Shown: positions 6,442-64,000 of the stretch, piece by piece
Position numbering within the stretch: position 1 is the first letter of the stretch
Layout of the letters: each line of letters starts with the position of its first letter
Assembly: GCF_003815715.1 (NCBI RefSeq)
Contig: NZ_CP033922.1
Coordinates: forward strand, 2,324,001-2,388,000
Reading direction: 5' to 3'
From: Chryseobacterium sp. G0162
Lineage (GTDB): Bacteria > Bacteroidota > Bacteroidia > Flavobacteriales > Weeksellaceae
DNA: 64,000 nt
Position numbers and translations under genes: made by a program
Notes under the pieces: model-generated
Told to the model about the DNA's origin: nothing
Database searches by the model: none
What the model saw: the letters and a program-made list of their open reading frames with translations, nothing else

Positions 6442-7185
6442 ATGTTAGAAATTAAAAACCTTCACGCCAAAATTGAAGATGGCGCAGAAATATTAAAAGG
6501 GATTAACCTTGAAATAAAACCAGGAGAAGTTCACGCTATTATGGGGCCAAACGGAGCTGGTAAGTCTACCCTTTCTTCTGTAATCGCAGGAAAAGAGGAT
6601 TACGAAGTGACAGGTGGAGAAATCTTGTTCCAGGGAGAAGATATCATCGAAGATGCTCCGGAAGACAGAGCACACAAAGGAATCTTCCTATCTTTCCAAT
6701 ATCCAGTGGAAATTCCGGGAGTTTCTGTAACGAACTTCATCAAAGCTGCTTTAAACGAAACAAGAAAAGCAAATGGATTGGAAGAAATGCCGGCAAAAGA
6801 AATGCTTGCATTAATCCGTGAAAAATCTGAAAAATTAGGCATCAAAAAAGACTTCCTTTCAAGATCATTGAACGAAGGATTCTCCGGAGGGGAGAAGAAA
6901 AGAAATGAGATCTTCCAGATGATGATGCTGAACCCTAAATTGGCTATCCTTGATGAAACGGATTCAGGATTAGACATCGATGCATTAAGAATTGTAGCGG
7001 ATGGGGTAAACCACTTTAAAAATGAAGGAAACGCAGTCCTTTTGATTACTCACTATCAAAGATTGCTTAACTATATTCAACCTGATTTCGTTCACGTTTT
7101 AGCTAATGGAAAAATCATCAAAACAGGTGATAAGTCTTTAGCATTAGAGCTTGAAGAAAAAGGGTACGACTGGCTTCTTAACTAA
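6442..7185 (+). CDS. sufC: Fe-S cluster assembly ATPase SufC
   Basis: ABC-type ATPase subunit of SufBC2D, 247 aa. Walker A is GPNGAGKST (residues 35-43), the signature is FSGGEKKR (147-154) and Walker B is [12 protein letters not shown] (168-178), with the TDSGLD wording specific to SufC. ATP binding drives the conformational change of SufB-SufD during cluster assembly. It follows the GNAT gene by 18 bp and precedes sufD by 137 bp. Confidence 0.96.
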
Positions 7186-7322
7186 GAAGAAACATTATTT
7201 CAGAGATTAAAAACTTTCGCGGTCATTCATAAATGTAGCAAAAAAAGAATCTCTAATATTAAAAATTGGATTTCACTGTTTCTCGGAACAGCAATATTTT
7301 TAGTTCAAAATAAAAAGAAAAA

Positions 7323-8657
7323 ATGGTGCAAACCACAGATATACCAGTAATGGCATTAAAAGAACAAATCATCGAAAACCATCATGAGTTTTTGGAGAGT
7401 CTTCGTCACAGATTTCTGGATGACAATAGAAAAGCTGCTCTTCAAAAGTTTGAAAACATGGGTTTTCCGACAAAAAAAGACGAAGAATATAAATATACCA
7501 ATCTAAAGGAGATCACGGAAAAAAGCTACAACTTCTTCCCGAAAGAAAGCCACAATATCACTAAAGAGCAGTTTGATGAATTGCATCTTGGAGAAGAAAA
7601 TTTTGATTGGATTGTTTTTGTAAACGGTAAACTTCACAAAGAACTTTCAAAAGTTTCTATTGAAAATGTAGAATTTCTGTCATTCAATTATGCATTGAAT
7701 GATGACAAACATAAAGAGGTATTTGAAAAATATTTCAATACAATTGCTTCCAAAGATTTAGCTTTCACCAACTTAAATCTTGCGTACTGCAAGTATGGTT
7801 TCTTCCTGAAGGTGCCTAAAAATGTAGTGATTGAAAAGCCTATTCATGTTTTCTATATTTCTCAAAATCAAGAAGAAAACACATTCTACAATACAAGAAA
7901 CTTACTAATTGTAGAAGATGGAGCGAAAGTTGAAGTTATTGAAAGTCACCACAATTTTGATGACACTTATGTCTTAACGAACTCTGTGACGGAAATCTTC
8001 ACTTATCCAAATGCAAAAGCAGACTGGCACAAACTTCAGAACGACAATAATACTTCTTACCTTGTAGATCATACCTTCGCAAAACAGGAGAAAGACAGCT
8101 TAACCACTGTGAATACATTCTCTTTTGGAGGAAAATTGGTAAGAAATAACCTCGATTTTATTCATAATGGATCAAATATCAATTCATTCATGAACGGAAT
8201 CACAATTATCGGAAAAGATCAGTTGGTAGATCATCATACTGCTGTTCACCACAATTTCCCGAACTGTGAAAGTTACCAGAACTACAAAGGAATCTTCGAT
8301 GGTAATGCCCACGGAGTTTTCAACGGAAAAGTTTTTGTTGATAAAATCGCTCAGAAAACCAATGCTTATCAACAGAATAATAACGTATTGCTAAGCGAGG
8401 GAGCAAGTATTGATACCAAACCTCAATTGGAGATCTTTGCGGATGATGTAAAATGTTCTCACGGATGTACAGTAGGTCAGCTTAATGAAGATGCCCTATT
8501 TTATCTGAGAGCGAGAGGAATCTCTAAAAAAGAAGCACAGGCACTACTTTTATATGCCTTTGCCAATGATGCCATGCAAAATATCGATATTGAACCTCTA
8601 AAAGAGAAAATTTCAAAGCTTTTAGCTGAGAAATTGGAAGTAGATATAGAATTTTAA
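7323..8657 (+). CDS. sufD: Fe-S cluster assembly protein SufD
   Basis: Second scaffold subunit of SufBC2D, 444 aa. The C-terminal half has the SufB/D beta-helix core (HHNFPNCESYQNYKGIFDG, KTNAYQQNNNVLLSEGASIDTKPQLEI, CSHGCTVGQLNEDALFYLRARGIS). The chosen ATG gives the usual N-terminal length; MALKEQIIENH ten codons in is an alternative start. It is the last gene of the operon, followed within 20 bp by a strong terminator. sufS and sufE are therefore encoded elsewhere. Confidence 0.94.
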   Translation: MVQTTDIPVMALKEQIIENHHEFLESLRHRFLDDNRKAALQKFENMGFPTKKDEEYKYTNLKEITEKSYNFFPKESHNITKEQFDELHLGEENFDWIVFVNGKLHKELSKVSIENVEFLSFNYALNDDKHKEVFEKYFNTIASKDLAFTNLNLAYCKYGFFLKVPKNVVIEKPIHVFYISQNQEENTFYNTRNLLIVEDGAKVEVIESHHNFDDTYVLTNSVTEIFTYPNAKADWHKLQNDNNTSYLVDHTFAKQEKDSLTTVNTFSFGGKLVRNNLDFIHNGSNINSFMNGITIIGKDQLVDHHTAVHHNFPNCESYQNYKGIFDGNAHGVFNGKVFVDKIAQKTNAYQQNNNVLLSEGASIDTKPQLEIFADDVKCSHGCTVGQLNEDALFYLRARGISKKEAQALLLYAFANDAMQNIDIEPLKEKISKLLAEKLEVDIEF

Positions 8658-52916: not shown

Positions 52917-52981
52917 TTGATTTTAACCTCACTCGCTGTAAATTATTTACTGTTCAAGATCATAAAGCTCTAATAATAAAA

Positions 52982-53905: not shown

Positions 53906-54104
53906 GCGTCTGTTATTATACGTTTTTCTTGGTGTAAAGTTGCAAAGAACTTATGAATGAACACAGACACAGATTTTTATATTTGGAAGGGTACAATTGA
54001 AAATGATAAAATATTGACACCAATTATTTTCCTTTAAATAGTGAACAACAAACAAAAAAGCATTTATTTGTAATACAATTATATTAGACGGAAAATAAAA
54101 TTGA

Positions 54105-54136
54105 TTTTGGATGGACTAATTAAATTTTTATATTGC
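54105..54136 (+). promoter_or_regulatory. Possible recombinase promoter
   Basis: TTTTG at 54105-54109, 19 nt, then TATATTGC at 54129-54136. This is a degenerate match to the -33/-7 pattern, upstream of the serine recombinase gene. Confidence 0.35.
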
Positions 54137-54141
54137 ATAGT

Positions 54142-54155
54142 AAAACGATCGTTTT
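54142..54155. promoter_or_regulatory. 14-bp palindrome upstream of the recombinase
   Basis: AAAACGATCGTTTT, a perfect palindrome ending 13 bp before the recombinase ATG and just after its predicted -7 box. It is a candidate autoregulatory operator or recombination half-site pair. Confidence 0.5.
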
Positions 54156-54168
54156 TTAAAACCAAATT

Positions 54169-54738
54169 ATGACTGTAGGTTACGCCAGAGTATCGACTCC
54201 CGAACAAAATATTTCTACTCAAGTTGAAATGTTAAAAGATAATGGATGTGAAAAAATATTCACCGACATTGCAAGTGGTGTTCGAGAAGATAGATTAGGA
54301 TTAAATGAAATGCTCTCCTATTTGCGAAAGGATGATATCATACTAGTATATAAAACAGATCGAATTTTTAGATCACTAAAAAACATGATTGAACTTATCG
54401 ATAAATTCAATGAAAAGGGCATTCTTTTTAAAAGCATTACCGAACCAGCCTTTGATACAACTTCAGCCAATGGAAAGTTTATTATTCAAATTTTTGGAGC
54501 TGTAGCCGAGTTTGAAAGAAGCCTAATTAGTGAAAGAACAAAATCTGGATTAGAAGGTGCTCGAAAAAGAAAAAAACTTTTAGGCAGACCCAAAGGATCA
54601 AGCCAAAAAAGTATAGAAAAATATCAATATGCTAAACATCTGTATGATAATAAAAATATTCCCATTAATAAAGCTTGTCAGCAAGCAGCAATAAGCAAAG
54701 CAACATTCTATCGTATTGATAAAATAAAAACAACTTAA
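54169..54738 (+). CDS. Small serine recombinase (resolvase/invertase family)
   Basis: 189-aa site-specific recombinase. The catalytic Ser is S9 in GYARVSTPEQN, with the family stretches KTDRIFRSLKNMIELIDKFNEKGI, FIIQIFGAVAEFERSLISERTKSGLEGARKR and GRPKG. The C-terminal helix-turn-helix covers about 150-189 (NKACQQAAISKATFYRI). It forms a DNA-Ser intermediate to invert or resolve DNA. It stands at the left border of the AT-rich island. No transposase accompanies it. Confidence 0.92.
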   Translation: MTVGYARVSTPEQNISTQVEMLKDNGCEKIFTDIASGVREDRLGLNEMLSYLRKDDIILVYKTDRIFRSLKNMIELIDKFNEKGILFKSITEPAFDTTSANGKFIIQIFGAVAEFERSLISERTKSGLEGARKRKKLLGRPKGSSQKSIEKYQYAKHLYDNKNIPINKACQQAAISKATFYRIDKIKTT

Positions 54739-54740
54739 TA

Positions 54741-54780
54741 TTTAATACGTCACATTTTGTCGTATTAAAATATATTTTTG
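54741..54780 (+). promoter_or_regulatory. Inverted repeat and shared accessory-gene promoter element, copy c
   Basis: TTTAATACG (54741-54749) and CGTATTAAA (54761-54769) are a perfect 9-bp inverted repeat with 11-bp spacer. The same bases form the motif AATACGTCACATTTTGTCG. It matches the elements upstream of the beta-helix and 93-aa genes, with TATTTTTG (54773-54780) as the -7 box 29 nt after its start. It lies 71 bp before the first island operon. Confidence 0.6.
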
Positions 54781-54851
54781 CAAAAAATAGTAATAAATCA
54801 TTCTACCAATTTTGTTTAAGAAGTAATTGTATATTCATAACAGGTAAAATC

Positions 54852-55385
54852 ATGTCAGGTAAAATATTTTTTATAGGAGGAATCCATGGAGTTGGCAAAA
54901 GTACTATATGTAAAAGCATCTGCAAGGATTTAAATCTAAAATACTTATCAGCAAGTCAACTTTTGAAATGGGATGAATCTGAGGACCCAAAAAACAAAAA
55001 GGTTAGTAACATTTTACAAATGCAAAATAAATTAATAATTGGTTTGAAACTTAATACTGATGTTAATAAAAATTATCTTTTAGATGGGCATTATTGTTTA
55101 TTGAATAAAAAAAATAAAGTGCAACCCGTTCCACATGACACATTTATTCAAATTAATCCTATAAACTTAAACATTATTCTAGGTAATGTATCAGAAATTA
55201 GTACTAGACTTCAAAATAGAGATAACATAGTTTATTCAATAGAGCTTCTAAAAAAATTTCAAAATTACGAACTATCATATGCACAAGAACTATCAAAAAA
55301 ATTAAACATAGATCTTAATATAGGAACACAAGATAATTATTCTGAAATATTAGAAAAAATTTATAAGAAACTAAATACACCATGA
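54852..55385 (+). CDS. P-loop ATPase, adenylate/nucleotide-kinase-like (AAA_17/18 type)
   Basis: 177-aa cytoplasmic protein. Walker A is GIHGVGKST (residues 10-18) at the very N-terminus. LLDGHYCLL is a Walker B/substrate-like strand, as in small nucleotide or RNA-associated kinases (AAA_17/18, KTI12-like). The short length and lack of AAA+ sensor motifs argue for a kinase-type P-loop over a remodelling ATPase. Its stop overlaps the next ATG (ATGA), so it is translationally coupled to the PIN-GNAT-PUA protein and probably acts with it as sensor or regulator. Confidence 0.75.
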   Translation: MSGKIFFIGGIHGVGKSTICKSICKDLNLKYLSASQLLKWDESEDPKNKKVSNILQMQNKLIIGLKLNTDVNKNYLLDGHYCLLNKKNKVQPVPHDTFIQINPINLNIILGNVSEISTRLQNRDNIVYSIELLKKFQNYELSYAQELSKKLNIDLNIGTQDNYSEILEKIYKKLNTP

Positions 55386-56884
55386 AAGCATTATTAGATA
55401 CAAACATTATTATACATAGAGAGGCCTCTCGGGTAATTAATCAAGATGTTGGAATTCTTTATCGATGGTTGGAACGAGCCAAGTATACGAAATGCGTACA
55501 TTCTCTTTCAATTGTTGAAATTGAGAAATATAAGGATAAGACAGCTGTTAATAGTTTTCATATAAAGTTAGACAGTTATGAACAAATCGAGTTACCATCT
55601 CCCTTACAAAAGGAAGTTATAGAGTTATCTTCTATAATAGATGCTAATGACAATGATAGAAATGACACTCAACTTTTAAATGAAGTTTATATTGGCAGAG
55701 TGGATATATTAATTACAGAAGATAAAAAAATGCATCGCAAAGCGCTTGAATTGAAAATTCAAGATAAAGTCTTTACTATAGATTCTTTTCTGGAAAAAAC
55801 ATTTGCAGAACATCCAGATCTTGTCAATTATAAAGTTCTTAATGTTCAAAAGCTTAAGTTCGGTAGAATTAATTTAGATGATAATTTTTTCGAAAGTCTT
55901 AAAGAAGATTATAATGGATTTGATAAGTGGTTTATAAAGAAATTTGATGAAGAAGCATATATTACTGTAAACTCAAATAATGGTTTACTATTATCCTTCC
56001 TATATTTAAAGATTGAAGATAGTGATGAAAATTATAAAGATATTATCCCTTTATTTACTCCTAAGAAAAGACTAAAAATTGGAACTTTCAAGGTAATTAA
56101 TAATGGATTTCGTCTTGGGGAAAGATTTATGAAAATTATTTTTGATAATGCTTTAAAAAATAAAGTTGATGAGATATATGTTACTATATTTGACAAAAGA
56201 GATGAACAAAAAAGACTCATCGACCTGTTGGAGCAATGGGGATTTATTTTCTGGGGGAAGAAAAATGAGGAGTTAATATATGTAAGAGACTTTACTAAAG
56301 CTTTTAACAAAGAGAATCTAAAAGCACATTATCCCTATATTTCACGATCACAAAATTGCTACATAGTACCAATTTACCCAGATTATCATACTAACCTATT
56401 ACCCGATTCAATTTTAAACACAGAATCTCCAGAGGAGTTTATCGAAGACTTTCCGCACAGAAATGGTATTAATAAAGTATATGTGTCACGAGCTTATGAA
56501 CCACACCCTGAACGTGGAGATATTCTTATTTTTTATAGGACAGGGGGGTATTACAAGAGTGTAGTTTCCACAATAGGAATAGTACAAGAAGTTAAATATG
56601 ATTTTAAAGACGAAGACGACTTCGTTTTATACTGTAGAAAAAGTACAGTATTTCCTGAATATGACCTACGGAAAATGTGGAATCATTCTCATGATAAGCC
56701 TTTTGTTGTTAATTTTTTATATATCTATTCTTTTCCACACAGAATTAATATGAAGGAATTAATTGATTTAAAAGTTCTTAACGGCATAAATGATTCGCCA
56801 AGAGGATTTAAACATATCAGCGAAAAAAAATTCAACGATATTTTAAAAAATACAAAAAGTGATGAGAGCTTTATTCTTGATTAA
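55382..56884 (+). CDS. PIN - GNAT - PUA/ASCH-like fusion protein, 500 aa
   Basis: Three domains in one chain. Residues 1-140 are a PIN nuclease fold with the acidic set D6 (LLDTNIII), E46 (SIVEIEKYK), D95 (NDRNDTQLL) and D114 (LITEDKKM). Residues about 155-305 resemble a GNAT acetyltransferase, with acetyl-CoA-type loop NNGFRLGERFMKIIFDNAL and LLEQWGFIFWGKKNEELIYVR. Residues about 318-500 look PUA-like (EVE/ASCH): VYVSRAYEPHPERGDILIFYRTGG, TIGIVQEV, ending GFKHISEKKFNDIL. PIN domains usually cut RNA, and PUA-like domains bind modified nucleotides. Central protein of the operon; likely effector. Confidence 0.72.
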   Translation: MKALLDTNIIIHREASRVINQDVGILYRWLERAKYTKCVHSLSIVEIEKYKDKTAVNSFHIKLDSYEQIELPSPLQKEVIELSSIIDANDNDRNDTQLLNEVYIGRVDILITEDKKMHRKALELKIQDKVFTIDSFLEKTFAEHPDLVNYKVLNVQKLKFGRINLDDNFFESLKEDYNGFDKWFIKKFDEEAYITVNSNNGLLLSFLYLKIEDSDENYKDIIPLFTPKKRLKIGTFKVINNGFRLGERFMKIIFDNALKNKVDEIYVTIFDKRDEQKRLIDLLEQWGFIFWGKKNEELIYVRDFTKAFNKENLKAHYPYISRSQNCYIVPIYPDYHTNLLPDSILNTESPEEFIEDFPHRNGINKVYVSRAYEPHPERGDILIFYRTGGYYKSVVSTIGIVQEVKYDFKDEDDFVLYCRKSTVFPEYDLRKMWNHSHDKPFVVNFLYIYSFPHRINMKELIDLKVLNGINDSPRGFKHISEKKFNDILKNTKSDESFILD

Positions 56885-56900
56885 TAGTTAATTTAAAAAA

Positions 56901-57821
56901 ATGAAAAGTATAGCTATTTGGGAGTCAAGGAATGATAAGCAGCCCTTTCAAGAAATAGAATTACATTTTAATTATTGGAAAATACCTAATAACGATAAAA
57001 ATTTTCACAAGTTTTTAGATGTTGGCCTTAAATTAAAATCGACTCAGAATACGGAGTATATCAATTTCTATTTTCCAGCCAAGATAGAAAAAAAAGACTT
57101 TTGTGATATAGTTTCCAAATTTATAAAGAAACCTGATTTAGTTAGTGCAATATTTAATGAAAACTACAAAGTTGTCATTGAAGGAAGTAAACAGCATAAA
57201 ATTCTCAGTGATCAAGATGATGAAGTTTTTACTGTTTATGAATTTTCTGATAATGACATCAGCTTTGAAAATAAATATGGAGGGACAATAGTGAGTTTAA
57301 AAGTACCGAAAATAAACAAAAAATTATATATTAGACTTAGAATTTCAGGCCCTTTTTTAAATCAACTCTCTACAATCACGAGCCCGTCTAACTCAATTTT
57401 CGAAAGTGCATTTTCTGAACTAGAAATGATTGATTTTAGAGTTAATGAAATAAGGGATCTAAACAAAGATCTTATGGAATATTGTGGCAAAATGTGTCAC
57501 ATCGAAAAACAACATTTCTTTTACATTTGCAGCAATAGTGAAGATGTTATAGGATATCATACACCTTATTTAAGTTGCCGTAATTTGGAAAATTATAGAT
57601 GGAATGGTTATGTCGATTTACCCGATATAGAGAATGCTATTTTCCTAGCCTATCATTGGAAATGGACAAATCAAGAAAACAGTTCCCTTTTGATTAAATC
57701 TAAGTATGAGAAAAATAATTGGAAAACGATTGCAAAATATTTAGGAGTTGTGGTAAGTATATCATTAGTGGGATGCTTTTTGTATGATATATTTAAGTTT
57801 TTACTATTAAAGTTATTATAA
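56901..57821 (+). CDS. Unknown protein with C-terminal membrane helix, 306 aa
   Basis: No family is recognised. Residues 1-275 look soluble and mixed alpha/beta, with several aromatic-rich segments (IELHFNYWKIPNN, FLAYHWKWTNQENSS). One hydrophobic helix near the end (about 282-303, YLGVVVSISLVGCFLYDIFKFLLLKLL) would tail-anchor it in the inner membrane with the bulk in the cytoplasm. It lies 16 bp after the PIN fusion and 14 bp before the ASCH gene, so it belongs to the same operon. A membrane effector or anchor is possible but unproven. Confidence 0.6.
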   Translation: MKSIAIWESRNDKQPFQEIELHFNYWKIPNNDKNFHKFLDVGLKLKSTQNTEYINFYFPAKIEKKDFCDIVSKFIKKPDLVSAIFNENYKVVIEGSKQHKILSDQDDEVFTVYEFSDNDISFENKYGGTIVSLKVPKINKKLYIRLRISGPFLNQLSTITSPSNSIFESAFSELEMIDFRVNEIRDLNKDLMEYCGKMCHIEKQHFFYICSNSEDVIGYHTPYLSCRNLENYRWNGYVDLPDIENAIFLAYHWKWTNQENSSLLIKSKYEKNNWKTIAKYLGVVVSISLVGCFLYDIFKFLLLKLL

Positions 57822-57835
57822 CGAATTAAATTATA

Positions 57836-58213
57836 ATGAGAGTTTTATTATCTATCAAACCAGAGTTTGCCTTTAAAATATTTGAGGGTAAAAAAAAGTT
57901 TGAATTCAGAAAAGTTATTTTTAAAAAAATGGATGTAACAACAGTTGTTGTTTATGCATCATCACCTGTACAAAAGGTTATTGGAGAATTTGAAATTGAT
58001 ACTATTTTAACATCTGCCCCTGAAGATATATGGGAAAAGACAAAAAAGCAATCGGGAATTACTGAAAAATATTTTTATGAATATTTTGGAGAGAGAGAGG
58101 TCGCTCATGCTATAAAAATCAAAGATGTTAAAAAGTATTCAGAACCTTTATCGTTAAAAGATGATTTTAAAGTTTCTCCTCCTCAATCTTATATGTATTT
58201 AGATACTGTATAA
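57836..58213 (+). CDS. ASCH domain protein
   Basis: 125-aa protein with the ASCH/PUA-like pattern. It opens VLLSIKPEFAFKIFEGKKKFEFRKVIFKK and continues TTVVVYASSPVQKVIGEFEIDTI and EREVAHAIKIKDVKKYSEPLSL, ending FKVSPPQSYMYLD. ASCH proteins bind nucleic acid or modified nucleosides, and some are nucleases or amidohydrolases on modified cytidine. It is last in the four-gene operon and the second PUA-like unit in it, suggesting recognition of a modified base or RNA. The terminator follows within 10 bp. Confidence 0.82.
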   Translation: MRVLLSIKPEFAFKIFEGKKKFEFRKVIFKKMDVTTVVVYASSPVQKVIGEFEIDTILTSAPEDIWEKTKKQSGITEKYFYEYFGEREVAHAIKIKDVKKYSEPLSLKDDFKVSPPQSYMYLDTV

Positions 58214-58219
58214 ATGAAA

Positions 58220-58272
58220 TTTGAAATAATGAAAAAACCTGTGAGAGACACAGGTTTTTTCATTATTTCAAA
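58220..58272. terminator. 24-bp perfect inverted repeat, bidirectional terminator
   Basis: The two 24-nt arms (58220-58243 and 58249-58272) are perfectly complementary around a 5-nt AGAGA loop. The core is AACCTGTG / CACAGGTT flanked by A- and T-runs. It separates the convergent ASCH and STAND genes. Confidence 0.85.
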
Positions 58273-58320
58273 AACAATCGTAGCTATTACAATTAAAGAA
58301 TAAAGCTTAAAATTTTTAGT

Positions 58321-61300
58321 TTAAATCCATTGCTCGTCATCTAGTTTTTCTCTTTTAATATCAAGAGCATTATATTCTAACATTTGAACAGCCCAATCTT
58401 TAACTTGCTGAATTGGATGATCAATTAATTCTTCCAAAAGCAATTTAATAGTTTCAAAATATGGAACTCGAGATCCAATAGTTCCAAAGGTTCCAATATT
58501 TGCTGATAATTCTGAAAGCACTTTTTCGTCATACCCAAATTCATCTAAAATAGCTTTGGAAAAAGGGTGCCATACTACTTCTTCATTTCTCAGAATACTT
58601 AGAGGCATTAATCGCGCTAGTCTTTTAGGTGCAATATCTGGATAATGTCTACACCATCCTAAAATAAAATCATAATTTTGGGGATTTAAAAATAACATTC
58701 CCTCTCTTCCTGCTAATGATCCATTTTTAGACCCTACCAAACTTTCTAAGTGAAAATAAGTAGTGTAATCCCCTATAATACCATTACCAATATAATCCCA
58801 TACATCTTTAAAATATTTCTCGAATAATAAACTTAATACATTTGAAATATAAGAGTCAAATGAATAATTAAAATTTCTTTGAGAACAAAAATCAATAATT
58901 TGCTTTGTAATAACTACTGCAAATTCTTTTACTTTATTCTCAGACAATATTCTACGTACGGTTTCTGACCAATAATACCCCTCTAATTGACCAGTAGAAT
59001 CATTATCTATTGTCATATTTCCACTTGAAATTAGATCTTTTAAAAAAGATTTACAATTATCCCATCTTTGATTGTCTCCACGACAATACATATAAACGAG
59101 AGACAAAGCTGTCCATTTACCTGCATTTGCATATAGACTTATCTTTTTACACAACCTCAACATCTCATCGACATTGAGATGATCTAATATCATTCCATAT
59201 TGAAAATTTTTAAACTGATATATTGAAAAGTTATGATTATCAACCAAAATAAAAAGCTTTTCAATATCAATCAAAGAAGGATTTATTACTCTAGTAAGAT
59301 AGAAAGCATGACGCATCATATTCGAGTCTAAAAGAAAATCATCAATAATACTTTCTGCAAGACGCTTATCCTCAGGATTAGAGAGAATTCCTGCTAAAAG
59401 GTCTAAGTTTTGTGATTCTTGTGGTATTTCTTTTAACCTTTCAAGGATATTAATAATTAAATTTTTCTTATCTACTGTTAATTCACCAATTTTTTGACCA
59501 AAATTAAATGTTTGTCTTTGATCTCCTTGTAGTAAATCATCTAAATATAATTCCCATTTCAGATTATTATTGATAATTTCTAACGCCAAATTTTGGGCGT
59601 TTAGCTTAGGTTTATCAAGGTATTCATCTTCTTCGTCTCTTTCAAATGGCTCCCATTCAGGTTTTATGACTTTTATTAACAACTGATTTTTTAAATCTCT
59701 AGGAGAAAGATCATCAATCAATGAATTTATTTGTTCTTTGTCCATATGAGATAGATGCGTTTCATAAGACAAAGTCATTTTTAAGTTATTTAAGGCTTCA
59801 GACCATATTTCATCTTTAAATTCTATAATTTCTCTAATAGAATTAATTATTAATGTTAATTCTCCTATTCTCGACAGCCCCCTAATTGATTTAGCAATTT
59901 TATCTTTTGCTAAATTGGCATTTATATTATTTGAACAAGCAACACTTGTGAGCATTTCCATAATTTGTATCCAATAAATATGAATTTCTTCCTGTGATGG
60001 ATGATAATCTTGTAAGGGAGCATTATTACCTTGTTTTTCTGATCCCCCTAATCTTATGAAATTATCTACTATCAATGCCCGTCCCATAGCTTCTATTGCA
60101 ATTTTAGTATAATCATCATCATTTTTTTCAAGCCCCCACTTTAAAATTTTCAATCTATTATTTAATGAAACTTCTGTTCCTGAAAGAAACAATTGAAAAA
60201 GTTGTTTAAATTGACTTATTGAATTATTTCCCCATGTTTCATTTTCTGATACGGCGAATGAGTATAAGATTTTTACAGCAGTATCAAATGATTCTTTTCT
60301 GAAACACAGTTTTTCTAATGACCAAACTAAATTCCTTCTCCCAATATCTATAGAGTAAATTTCTTGCTTAGACATCTTACCAAATGAAGATTCTAAAGCC
60401 TTAGCCGTTATTATCGGGTTCACTTCTACAACATAGCGGAAGAGTTGTGAACCCCAAGAAGTATTAAGAACCTCCGCTGAACCAAAAGGGCTATTCGGGC
60501 CCCATAACTCGGCAACAATATCTTTAGCTTTATCAATTTGATCAAGATCTTTTAACCTATCTACAAATTTTTCATCAAGCCCAACATTTTTGAGTTCCTT
60601 AATAATTATAATAATTTGGTCTGCATCTGTATGCAATAACCAATCAGCAGCTAAATTAATCGCTAATAAAGTAGGTTTTACAACATAATAGATTCCTCTT
60701 CTCTCAATAATATCAAGTTTTAGAAATTTGGTACATATTTCTCTAAATTTCGTAGATGTAATATCTCCATCATATATTCTTGTCCTAATAAAGTCCATCT
60801 GTGCTCTTAGTGATTCTTTAACTTCAGTATTTATTACTTCTCTAAAACTATCATCTAAAAATCCAAACGAGGAAAAGACAGAACATGCCCTAACTACACC
60901 ATATTCTATATCATTTTCAACTCCATTACCAAATATTAATTTTCTAGTGAACTCATCAAGCGGAATTTTATGTAATTCTGACATTCCATCCTTAAGAACT
61001 ATATCACAAAATTTGATCGCCATAGAAGGATAACCTTCTGATATAGTATTTATATATTCTATATCTGAGACATTATGAGTGTATCCAATTTTGTTTTGTA
61101 CAATTTCTCTTACAAGATCACGTTGTTTATCCCTTTCTATTTTAATTTTTAAATCCTCAATCGAATTATTATCGTCTAGGCCTATAGTAATAATCTTAAT
61201 TTTACTTGTTGGGCTAATTGTATTAGACAAAATATTATGGCTTCTGGCATCACAATTATCAATTACTATAATTCCATTCTGACTATCTTGATGTGATATA

Positions 61301-62115
61301 ATATAGTTTTTAATTACAGCAATATTTTCATTTCCTTCCAAATCATAATAAACTACAGCTTTCTGTGTTAAAGATTCTCTAAATGCTTCTAAAGCTAATC
61401 TTGTTTTACCAAGACCAGAGTGTCCTGTTATACGAATAGATTTTTTTTCATCGATTAGATTTATAAGTGAAATATTATTCCTTACTATATCATCTAATTT
61501 AAATGTATTCTGATTTGCCCTTGAAAAAATTTCCCATTCCTCCCAGGTTCTAAAGCCATCCGGTCTATGTATTCCATTAAATCCTTGTACTAAAGTTACT
61601 GCTGATATATATTCATTAACCCAGTCCTTAATCGAGTTAGCATCATATACTTCTATATGAAACGTAGCATAATTTGCTTCTCCGGCAATCTTGATTGCAT
61701 CTCTAAAACCTTTTATTCTATTATCCTTACCATTGTCAACAATAGGCTTATTAGTAAATAAAATATAACACCCATTTGACTTAACTAGCTTTTCAATCTG
61801 TTCCTTCAGCTTTCTTTTAACATTTTTCTTTTCAGGTTCTAAAATTTCATCTGCACATAGAGATGGCATAAGATCTGTTGCTTTATTTTGAAAGATTGTA
61901 AATTTATTTTTGAGCCATCGTGTTGTTTCAGGATTACCATTCCAAATAGCTCTTCCATCAGATCCTCCATCAGCAGATGTAATGTTAAAGGGAACGGATC
62001 TTTCAAATTCTTGAAGTTGATATTTATCAGCTTCTAATCCAATTAAATGGTGTAATAGTTGTGACAACTGTAGATCTTTAAGTCTTTTTATATCTTCAAT
62101 ATTTATCTCATTCAT
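58321..62115 (-). CDS. STAND NTPase with Mrr-like nuclease N-terminus (Avs-like), 1264 aa
   Basis: Large single-chain protein. Residues about 1-170 look like a PD-(D/E)xK restriction-type fold: SADGGSDGRAIW with D53, then FTIFQNKA with Q76/K78, the D...QxK set of Mrr-like nucleases. A P-loop NTPase follows with Walker A GHSGLGKT (231-238) and Walker B IIVIDNCD (282-289). The remaining ~850 residues appear to be helical repeats, likely the sensor. The nuclease-STAND-repeat layout is that of antiviral STAND (Avs) proteins, which detect phage proteins and then cut DNA. Assignment to a known Avs type was not possible. Divergent from the operon at 62299. Confidence 0.78.
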   Translation of the reverse strand: MNEINIEDIKRLKDLQLSQLLHHLIGLEADKYQLQEFERSVPFNITSADGGSDGRAIWNGNPETTRWLKNKFTIFQNKATDLMPSLCADEILEPEKKNVKRKLKEQIEKLVKSNGCYILFTNKPIVDNGKDNRIKGFRDAIKIAGEANYATFHIEVYDANSIKDWVNEYISAVTLVQGFNGIHRPDGFRTWEEWEIFSRANQNTFKLDDIVRNNISLINLIDEKKSIRITGHSGLGKTRLALEAFRESLTQKAVVYYDLEGNENIAVIKNYIISHQDSQNGIIVIDNCDARSHNILSNTISPTSKIKIITIGLDDNNSIEDLKIKIERDKQRDLVREIVQNKIGYTHNVSDIEYINTISEGYPSMAIKFCDIVLKDGMSELHKIPLDEFTRKLIFGNGVENDIEYGVVRACSVFSSFGFLDDSFREVINTEVKESLRAQMDFIRTRIYDGDITSTKFREICTKFLKLDIIERRGIYYVVKPTLLAINLAADWLLHTDADQIIIIIKELKNVGLDEKFVDRLKDLDQIDKAKDIVAELWGPNSPFGSAEVLNTSWGSQLFRYVVEVNPIITAKALESSFGKMSKQEIYSIDIGRRNLVWSLEKLCFRKESFDTAVKILYSFAVSENETWGNNSISQFKQLFQLFLSGTEVSLNNRLKILKWGLEKNDDDYTKIAIEAMGRALIVDNFIRLGGSEKQGNNAPLQDYHPSQEEIHIYWIQIMEMLTSVACSNNINANLAKDKIAKSIRGLSRIGELTLIINSIREIIEFKDEIWSEALNNLKMTLSYETHLSHMDKEQINSLIDDLSPRDLKNQLLIKVIKPEWEPFERDEEDEYLDKPKLNAQNLALEIINNNLKWELYLDDLLQGDQRQTFNFGQKIGELTVDKKNLIINILERLKEIPQESQNLDLLAGILSNPEDKRLAESIIDDFLLDSNMMRHAFYLTRVINPSLIDIEKLFILVDNHNFSIYQFKNFQYGMILDHLNVDEMLRLCKKISLYANAGKWTALSLVYMYCRGDNQRWDNCKSFLKDLISSGNMTIDNDSTGQLEGYYWSETVRRILSENKVKEFAVVITKQIIDFCSQRNFNYSFDSYISNVLSLLFEKYFKDVWDYIGNGIIGDYTTYFHLESLVGSKNGSLAGREGMLFLNPQNYDFILGWCRHYPDIAPKRLARLMPLSILRNEEVVWHPFSKAILDEFGYDEKVLSELSANIGTFGTIGSRVPYFETIKLLLEELIDHPIQQVKDWAVQMLEYNALDIKREKLDDEQWI

Positions 62116-62298: not shown

Positions 62299-63129
62299 AT
62301 GAATAAAGACCAGATTCAGCGTGAAGATTTAAAAAAGAATATGATGAAAAATATCATATTCCGCGTATATTATCAAGGAATTCTTGATTCTGAAGACATT
62401 ATTAGAGGGTTTTATGAAAGATTCAAAGAATATTTTAAATCATTTGAAACAACTTTCTATAATAGATTAGAACTAGACTTTAATAATATTGATGATCTTA
62501 TTGATACTTTGTTAATACCTCGTACCGAAATACAGTCCCAAGAAATTTTCAGATTTACAGAAAATACTTTTGGAACAGATAAACTAACATTTGACATTAA
62601 TAAATATTTTTCTTCTTTAACAATTGAATGTACGGATTATATAAATATAGATCCATATCTAAATTTTTTTACTAATTATTTGGAGTTTTTATATTCTGAA
62701 AATGAATTTCTAAAGATCAAAAAAATTGCATTGCGTAAACTAGGTGGTAATATATATTTCGATATTAAAAGTATTTATGATGATTTTGAGCCCAATCTTT
62801 TTAAATCAGGCTTTAAAGATCATGGTTATCATTCAATTCAAAACAGATACGAAGATACTTTACAAAGCGGTTCCGATGAACCAATTATTAATATAATCCG
62901 TTCTTTTGAATATGGGGCCTACAAAAATGAAAAATCGGAGGACATTCCAGCATTTCAGATTCTTTTAGATCTTGAAGGATACTACCCAGAATATATTCTG
63001 AATAAAATTAACTTTGATAAGACACAAGTCGAAACAATTTTAAAAAATATTAATCACAATCACTTATTTAACATTTTTAAATTAAGCGTAACAGAAAATT
63101 ATTTGAAAAATCATTCACAAAATGAATAA
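62299..63129 (+). CDS. Hypothetical protein, TIGR04255-like, 276 aa
   Basis: No signal or membrane segment. The pattern FRFTENTFGTDKLTFDINKYFSSLTIECTDYINIDPYLNFFTNYLEFLY...IKKIALRKLGG recalls TIGR04255, a sporadically distributed family of unknown role. The match is weak. It is the first gene of an operon running off the window, starting ~180 bp from the divergent STAND gene. TAACTTTG at 62272-62279 is a possible -7 box, 19 nt before the ATG, and an 11-nt TG repeat sits upstream of it. Its stop overlaps the next small gene by 8 bp. Confidence 0.6.
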   Translation: MNKDQIQREDLKKNMMKNIIFRVYYQGILDSEDIIRGFYERFKEYFKSFETTFYNRLELDFNNIDDLIDTLLIPRTEIQSQEIFRFTENTFGTDKLTFDINKYFSSLTIECTDYINIDPYLNFFTNYLEFLYSENEFLKIKKIALRKLGGNIYFDIKSIYDDFEPNLFKSGFKDHGYHSIQNRYEDTLQSGSDEPIINIIRSFEYGAYKNEKSEDIPAFQILLDLEGYYPEYILNKINFDKTQVETILKNINHNHLFNIFKLSVTENYLKNHSQNE

Positions 63130-63283
63130 AATATCTATTGATAAAAATTTCATCCCTTTAAAAGATGGCAAACCTAAGAAACTTGAATTTAAACCATCTG
63201 TTAGGAAAAGTGCAATATCCAAAGAGGTAAATGTCTCTCATTTTCTCCGCACTAGTAAACCTATAATTAGAAAAGAAAAGTGA
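63122..63283 (+). CDS. Small basic protein, 53 aa, between two defence-type genes
   Basis: Reads MNKISIDKNFIPLKDGKPKK, then a Lys/Arg-rich stretch ending RTSKPIIRKEK. It is strongly basic, without membrane segment or known family. It starts 8 bp inside the upstream gene, and its stop forms GTGA with the start of the metallo-beta-lactamase gene, so translation is tightly coupled on both sides. This packing is the main evidence that it is real. A role as linker or nucleic-acid-binding accessory is inference. Confidence 0.6.
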   Translation: MNKISIDKNFIPLKDGKPKKLEFKPSVRKSAISKEVNVSHFLRTSKPIIRKEK

Positions 63284-64000
63284 CTTATTATGTTGAGGAT
63301 ATTAATGAGATAACTCTTGACGTTTTTACTATCGGTTATTCCGAAAAAGGAGAAAGTCAAGTTATCTTGCTTTATGATAATGTTAAAGATCAGGTCTTAT
63401 TCAGTTTTGTTATTGACTGTTATTCTACTGCAACGCTTCATAAAACAAAAGACATTCTAGATTATTACAAAATTTCAAATATTGATTATTTCATTTGGAC
63501 ACACACTGATGAAGACCATTCTGTTGGAATTGATATATTAGTTGACAATTATTGTTCAGCCAAGACAAATTTTTACCTTCCAGAAGGAATTGATGGAACT
63601 GAATTAGATATTTTCAGCTATAATCAAGATGTTAAAAATTGTTTTGAAAAAATTAATTCTTTAAATAAGCAGCAAAATTACAACGTTCATACTTTAACAC
63701 TACCTGTTGATGGAAACCTAGAGATTGTACGAAGGATCATCAAAGAAGAAAAAACAACAAAACAATTTAATTTTCAGGTTTTTTGCATAGCTCCTTTATC
63801 TGCTATTATTAAAAGAAGGAAACAGGCTAAAATAGCAGGAGCAACTCATGTGAACGCAAACGACTTTTCAATAGCAACTGTTTTCAAAGTTGGAGAATTA
63901 AGTCTATTATTTAGTGGAGACATTGAAAACCAAACAATAAATTTAATTCCAGACTATCACTTTGAAGGATTATCCTATGTAAAGACCCCACATCATACTT
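63280..64000 (+). CDS. ComEC/Rec2-like metallo-beta-lactamase fold protein, partial (cut by window end)
   Basis: The first 240 residues are visible, starting at GTG 63280 (an in-frame TAG four codons upstream excludes an earlier start). The metal motif is THTDEDHSVG (H75, D77, D79, H80), the HxDxDH form seen in ComEC-type hydrolase domains, not classical HxHxDH. Further ligands are likely D214 in FSGDIENQ and the HH pair in VKTPHHT at the edge. It is third in the operon. MBL proteins accompany the STAND protein in type 1 AVAST systems, so the pair is worth comparing. Confidence 0.78.
   Translation, partial: MTYYVEDINEITLDVFTIGYSEKGESQVILLYDNVKDQVLFSFVIDCYSTATLHKTKDILDYYKISNIDYFIWTHTDEDHSVGIDILVDNYCSAKTNFYLPEGIDGTELDIFSYNQDVKNCFEKINSLNKQQNYNVHTLTLPVDGNLEIVRRIIKEEKTTKQFNFQVFCIAPLSAIIKRRKQAKIAGATHVNANDFSIATVFKVGELSLLFSGDIENQTINLIPDYHFEGLSYVKTPHHT

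Follow-up and report, generated by a model that had tools for sequence, protein, structure and literature searches.

Operons in which a (PIN)-GNAT-EVE protein is encoded together with an ASCH protein, and often with a protein of the AAA_17 family, are presented in the main text of Bell, Wolf and Koonin (Bell et al. 2020; PMC7641849), where they are credited to Iyer et al. (2013). There the operons are predicted to be toxin–antitoxin modules taking part in virus–host conflict, the form with a PIN domain is stated to be often associated with defence genes, type I restriction–modification among them, and it is noted that no module had yet been characterised by experiment. We analysed a related locus in Chryseobacterium sp. 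G0162, whose genome is one contig of 5.28 Mb (NZ_CP033922.1). All coordinates are positions in the window, i.e. the whole stretch of 64,000 nt that was analysed (contig positions 2,324,001 to 2,388,000); coordinates following an L-number are those of the locus so numbered. Between 54852 and 58213 four genes on the same strand code for a P-loop protein, a PIN-GNAT-PUA-like fusion protein, a tail-anchored membrane protein (TAP), and an ASCH protein. Apart from TAP, these belong to a system already predicted; TAP appears to be the new part, one not listed as a component before.

A sequence-only reading of the window had taken this gene combination to be undescribed. That does not stand for the fusion, the ASCH protein and the AAA_17 protein, which were already on record (main text of PMC7641849, PDC-M11A/B, GevT/GevA), but it appears to stand for TAP, which is unlisted there. 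The module itself is real and conserved. We hold it about evenly probable that it is a mobile (PIN)-GNAT-EVE module working as a toxin–antitoxin-like effector system, which probably protects against phage; the mechanism proposed below is the best fit to the data rather than a result.

The locus agrees with the published operons in the joining of PIN, GNAT-like and EVE domains in a single chain, in the ASCH gene of the operon and in the AAA_17 protein, and differs from them in the TAP gene between those for the fusion and the ASCH protein. The words 'transmembrane' and 'tail-anchored' are absent from the main text of PMC7641849, a check to which the figures (including Fig. 8) did not belong. 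In PADLOC, both proteins of PDC-M11 are matched, the fusion by PDC-M11A over residues 1-499 and the ASCH protein by PDC-M11B, whereas TAP has no match and the P-loop protein has weak matches only (VakA and PDC-M51B). We take PDC to stand for 'phage defence candidate'. A further relative is the pair of toxin GevT and antitoxin GevA in the lambda-like Escherichia phage PhiR47_2 (PV340567; L048 5968-7396), located between cI and kil. Here a GNAT-EVE protein, 38.9% identical to residues 159-499 of the fusion, is followed by an ASCH protein and the two genes overlap; the pair differs from our locus in that it has no PIN domain and that no TAP- or kinase-like gene is annotated beside it. The PhiR47_2 match score was repeated in seven other Escherichia phage records, one phage being counted twice. 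The VapC toxins of type II toxin–antitoxin systems have the PIN fold with conserved acidic residues in common with the fusion, but here PIN makes up one domain in three, an ASCH protein takes the place of a VapB-like partner, and the genes of fusion and partner do not adjoin, with TAP lying between them. Since the fusion and ASCH genes overlap in most relatives, TAP interrupts the pair at this locus. A literature search that left out preprints and most subscription journals yielded no paper on PDC-M11 and none on GevT among the papers listed, so that a description of GevT may exist elsewhere, and the part of PMC12839542 that was covered holds nothing on the (PIN)-GNAT-EVE module. Likewise, TAP was seen neither in the main text of PMC7641849 nor in PADLOC or PV340567, and may be described in journals outside the search.

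The fusion protein was modelled with AlphaFold (predicted local distance difference test, pLDDT, 89.9; predicted template modelling score, pTM, 0.79). All three folds were confirmed by this model and by comparison with the PDB, for which VIA-align was run against Foldseek's top chains (fusion and TAP). The calls made from the letters, i.e. a PIN domain with four acidic residues, a GNAT-like and a PUA-like domain, agree with this outcome, and the structure prediction that had been suggested as a check gave PIN and PUA-like regions matching those folds. The PIN domain has the VapC fold with conserved acidic residues, and several of the structural neighbours of the GNAT domain are N-terminal or ribosomal-protein acetyltransferases. 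Among 8000 candidates scored, 5817 relatives of the fusion were obtained at E up to 0.001. The best 120 of these 5817 are 500-501 amino acids (aa) long, are at least 78% identical to the fusion of the window and come from several Bacteroidota families, a uniformity that is striking given the patchy occurrence of the gene. At four loci (L018, L021, L024, and L025) the fusion is interrupted by a stop or spread over two reading frames, which might be expected if the genes are costly or dispensable.

The flanking components were also called correctly in the earlier reading, the first gene as P-loop kinase-like and the last as an ASCH protein. Among PDB entries, UMP/CMP and adenylate kinases are weakly similar to the P-loop protein (0.003-0.01). 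A relative of the ASCH protein is ZmASCH (1.6e-10), for which nucleic-acid binding and cleavage of single-stranded RNA are reported, with Tyr47, Lys53 and Ser128 as implicated residues, in the part of PMC5615036 that was covered. Tyr47 and Ser128 are retained as Y40 and S118; Lys53 aligns with Q46. Within one genus, three genomes encode ASCH and kinase as a single fused protein beside the effector.

For TAP, 525 relatives were found, with no match in PADLOC and no significant match in Pfam. The predicted model consists of a confident beta-sandwich head and one C-terminal helix, and the C-termini of the relatives are hydrophobic by hydropathy. An alignment of 24 diverse members has 12 invariant residues besides the start. 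Structure comparison of the model showed the head to resemble the N-terminal domain of M1 aminopeptidases and an oligosaccharyltransferase chain, in both cases at 5-12% identity and as a shared fold only. TAP, with 306 aa, lacks the zinc-peptidase domain of the former, and its sequence contains no HExxH, the zinc-peptidase motif. The oligosaccharyltransferase chain is presumably Ost1/ribophorin I; the comparison output names the complex only. A longer related form (TAP2) is located upstream of the fusion at other loci, and the TAP gene itself may lie before or after the fusion, at times on the opposite strand. With these relatives and the TAP2 form the idea that TAP is an oddity of two species was ruled out. 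A weak TAP match in genome G084, on a different contig from the fusion of that genome, was rejected as chance (32% over 67 residues, E 4e-4, six in-frame stops). TAP, a membrane component absent from the libraries searched, is rare and yet scattered widely.

How regularly the components occur together was assessed at 29 other genome loci, collected by exact matching of peptide patterns taken from the query fusion and consequently biased to close relatives. An ASCH gene is near the fusion in 29/29 loci, on the opposite strand in one with a truncated fusion (L030); the ASCH-kinase fusions, which the ASCH profile flagged on kinase genes, were left out of this count. TAP is present near the fusion at 13 loci, including one fragment and one broken gene, and the kinase at nine, one cut by the contig end and one on the opposite strand. 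All four genes stand together, as the earlier reading had supposed of a unit, at seven loci (L005, L008, L010, L011, L019, L021, and L022) in addition to the window. The association between kinase and TAP is weak in this set (counts 7, 2, 6 and 14; Fisher p 0.04) and the loci are interrelated.

A (PIN)-GNAT-EVE relative was found in 33 of 72,556 plasmid records and TAP in seven, all seven among the 33 (hypergeometric 2e-24, on the generous assumption of independent records), the two genes lying 0.4-1.7 kb apart according to the hit coordinates. Two distant TAP queries added no plasmid record to the seven, and a TAP2 query found none. Kinase relatives were detected by tblastn in six records, each of which also has a (PIN)-GNAT-EVE gene. 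The seven plasmid TAP loci contain the fusion or its PIN-less form in 7/7, ASCH in 7/7 (L052 from the annotation, the other six from the search) and the kinase in 6/7. Their hosts are Bacillota (Paenibacillus), Campylobacterota (Nitrosophilus), and Alpha- and Gammaproteobacteria; with Bacteroidota added, TAP is found next to (PIN)-GNAT-EVE in four phyla. In Paracoccus sp. AK26 the gene order is helix-turn-helix (HTH)-ASCH, PIN-GNAT-EVE, kinase, TAP, and in Rhizobium anhuiense one TAP and one kinase accompany two adjacent fusion-ASCH pairs.

The occurrence of the fusion is patchy: it is present in 13 of 395 genomes of a phylum sample, including its own genome and one represented by a 49-residue fragment. 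The TAP profile matched 2/173 genomes of the genus (own included) and 1/376 of the order (own). The TAP2 profile had no match in the 395 genomes and missed even the TAP of the window; it is therefore insensitive to the short form. Sixteen phage records contain a fusion relative, which lacks the PIN part in 14, and in viral contigs nine stretches matched the fusion, none of which was confirmed. The null searches for TAP and the fusion show rarity, not absence.

The module has the features of a mobile island. The stretch 54053-58260 aligns at 81.6% with Chryseobacterium vrystaatense (L019) including the serine resolvase, which directly precedes the four genes in the window, as had been read from the sequence, and adjoins the module in L019; at the other four-gene loci there is only one weak match (L008, 1e-4). 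The resolvase is probably a mobility gene outside the system. Left chromosomal synteny stops at about 54001 in four of five relatives compared (at 52918 in the fifth), and therefore the island starts there. The ratios of nonsynonymous to synonymous substitution (dN/dS) against L019 are 0.029 for ASCH, 0.041 for the fusion, 0.050 for the resolvase, 0.095 for TAP and 0.109 for the kinase, rough values because dS is 0.9-1.7 and only one pair was compared. Judged by these substitutions, all four genes are maintained as proteins; that TAP and the kinase change fastest fits a sensing role without proving it.

The features of the locus are collected in Table 1. The tight packing of the four genes, with an ATGA overlap followed by gaps of 16 and 14 bp, is as first described, and so is the closing terminator, a strong one; three terminator-like sites lie in 54000-58400, against 1.1 expected. 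The single promoter also claimed could not be substantiated: a sigma-70 scan did no better than shuffles, and a regular-expression search found two -7-like motifs upstream (53978 and 54773) and no paired -33/-7 motif.

Table 1. Features of the (PIN)-GNAT-EVE locus of Chryseobacterium sp. G0162
Feature	Position	Strand	Evidence
Serine resolvase/invertase, 189 aa	54169..54738	+	Pfam Resolvase 4.7e-40
P-loop NMP-kinase-like protein (AAA_17), 177 aa	54852..55385	+	AAA_17 4.3e-11
PIN-GNAT-EVE fusion, 500 aa, putative effector	55382..56884	+	PADLOC PDC-M11A 3.1e-214
PIN domain, residues 1-134, with D6, E46, D95, D114	55382..55783	+	
GNAT domain, residues 151-306, coenzyme A (CoA) loop N-G-F-R-L-G-E	55832..56299	+	
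PUA-like (EVE/ASCH-type) domain, residues 321-494	56342..56863	+	
TAP, tail-anchored membrane protein, 306 aa	56901..57821	+	no family model in libraries searched
TAP C-terminal helix, residues 274-305, probably membrane-spanning	57720..57815	+	predicted model; hydropathy of relatives
ASCH protein, 125 aa, putative antitoxin/partner	57836..58213	+	PADLOC PDC-M11B 3.6e-52
Intrinsic terminator between module and convergent PD-Lambda-4-like gene	58223..58269	.	20-pair stem

Downstream, a 1264-aa protein is encoded convergently to the module (58321-62115, minus strand) and matches PADLOC PD-Lambda-4_A over residues 457-1057 (2.8e-54). In L019 only about 50 bp separate the module from the right flank (window 61963 onward), and because of this we regard the PD-Lambda-4_A-like gene as a gained or lost cassette. 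This gene adjoins the module. Further downstream (62299-64000, plus strand) a 276-aa protein without family match is followed by a metallo-beta-lactamase-like protein that runs off the window and weakly matches RTasMBL (4.7e-8) and LmuA (6.5e-6); the two are perhaps another defence pair.

Two kinds of additional genes were noticed at other loci. A gene for an HNH_5 nuclease lies between TAP2 and the fusion in L010 (7165-8004, Pfam 2.7e-13) and L011 (about 7166-7996, by eye) and after ASCH in L026 (9892-10629, Pfam 1.6e-10), and a short HNH_5-like stretch was judged by eye in L035 (about 1254-1532). Small genes of 142-150 aa with a similar ...PFI tail and a common neighbourhood occur in L003, L008 (7564-8004), L013 (6529-6981), and L020 (called longer); those of L008 and L013 have weak matches only, to HEPN (0.066) and DUF4145 (0.024). 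This neighbourhood is a possible exchangeable accessory slot.

In the mechanism that we propose the fusion would be the toxic effector. Its PUA-like domain may pick an RNA, perhaps a modified one, which the PIN domain would cut, and the GNAT domain would bind or modify the substrate. The ASCH protein may keep the fusion inactive. TAP would sit in the inner membrane by its anchor, the head facing the cytoplasm, as a sensor or scaffold that tethers the complex and localises the nuclease. TAP and the P-loop protein may sense infection, the latter gating the nuclease; the effector would then be freed, RNA would be cut, phage growth would stop and the module would confer immunity. The earlier guess from the sequence, a toxin or immunity module directed at RNA or at modifications, was right as to the predicted type.

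Several observations argue for an effector system directed against phage: the folds and the conserved PIN residues, the PDC-M11A/B matches, the published prediction and the GevT/GevA labels, the co-occurrence of TAP, kinase and ASCH, the ASCH-kinase fusions, the putative sensors changing fastest among the four genes, the patchy occurrence and the PD-Lambda-4_A-like and metallo-beta-lactamase-fold neighbours. Others weigh against it. The GNAT motif for CoA binding is (R/Q)xxGxG; in the loop of the fusion the middle glycine is replaced, and because the canonical glycine is lacking GNAT catalysis is uncertain. The identity of the best 120 fusion relatives to the fusion of the window is unusually high for a defence effector, and the names GevT and GevA are the label of a GenBank record only. 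TAP was not found at 16/29 genome loci, at least three of which (L006, L016, and L024) are truncated a short way upstream, and no convincing TAP was found in the 12 genomes, other than its own, that carry a fusion among the 395, loci of these having flanks of about 1.5 kb or less. No TAP was found in phage records, and none of the 50 TAP and 60 TAP2 stretches matched in viral contigs was confirmed. Because of these negative results we consider TAP an optional component.

The alternative that fares best is a selfish addiction module, in which the fusion toxin and the ASCH antitoxin would stabilise a mobile element, with TAP and the kinase as regulators and without phage defence. We regard this as possible, though doubtful. 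The resolvase that moves with the module in a second species, the toxin/antitoxin label of the PIN-less relative within a lambda-like phage, the overlap of fusion and ASCH genes in most relatives and the presence on plasmids speak for it, but four components including a membrane protein would exceed the needs of addiction, the neighbouring genes are defence-like, and the frequent occurrence of the PIN form near type I restriction–modification and other defence genes (Bell et al., main text of PMC7641849) points the same way. Unlikely in our view is a cellular role in RNA surveillance or repair, with the PUA-like domain recognising damaged or mis-modified RNA for PIN to trim, the kinase and ASCH assisting and TAP providing a tie to the membrane. 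Such a role would account for the strong conservation of the fusion and for the acetyltransferases among the GNAT neighbours; the small share of genomes with the fusion, the island position and the occurrence on plasmids and in phages speak against it. That TAP is a mere passenger, a gene of independent standing that has been inserted between those of fusion and ASCH, as its interruption of the usually overlapping pair, its variable position and strand and the 16 loci without it might suggest, is very improbable in view of the (PIN)-GNAT-EVE relatives in all seven plasmid records with TAP, its presence at 13 of 29 loci, the related longer form upstream of the fusion elsewhere and the purifying selection on it (one pair).

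Returning to the phage-directed effector system, we tentatively suggest, with more doubt than confidence, that TAP may define a membrane-tethered (PIN)-GNAT-EVE immunity class. A conserved site in the cytoplasmic beta-sandwich (H22, W26, N86, R145, N182, R185, and R227) would sense an infection signal that the P-loop kinase makes or processes and, acting from the membrane, would release the three-domain RNase from inhibition by ASCH. The fusion has numerous relatives, and the modules are uncharacterised according to the main text of PMC7641849. With its well-predicted fold, a dedicated membrane subunit is a concrete handle on them and suggests where in the cell the system works. It also suggests that two-gene annotations such as PDC-M11 may omit working parts.

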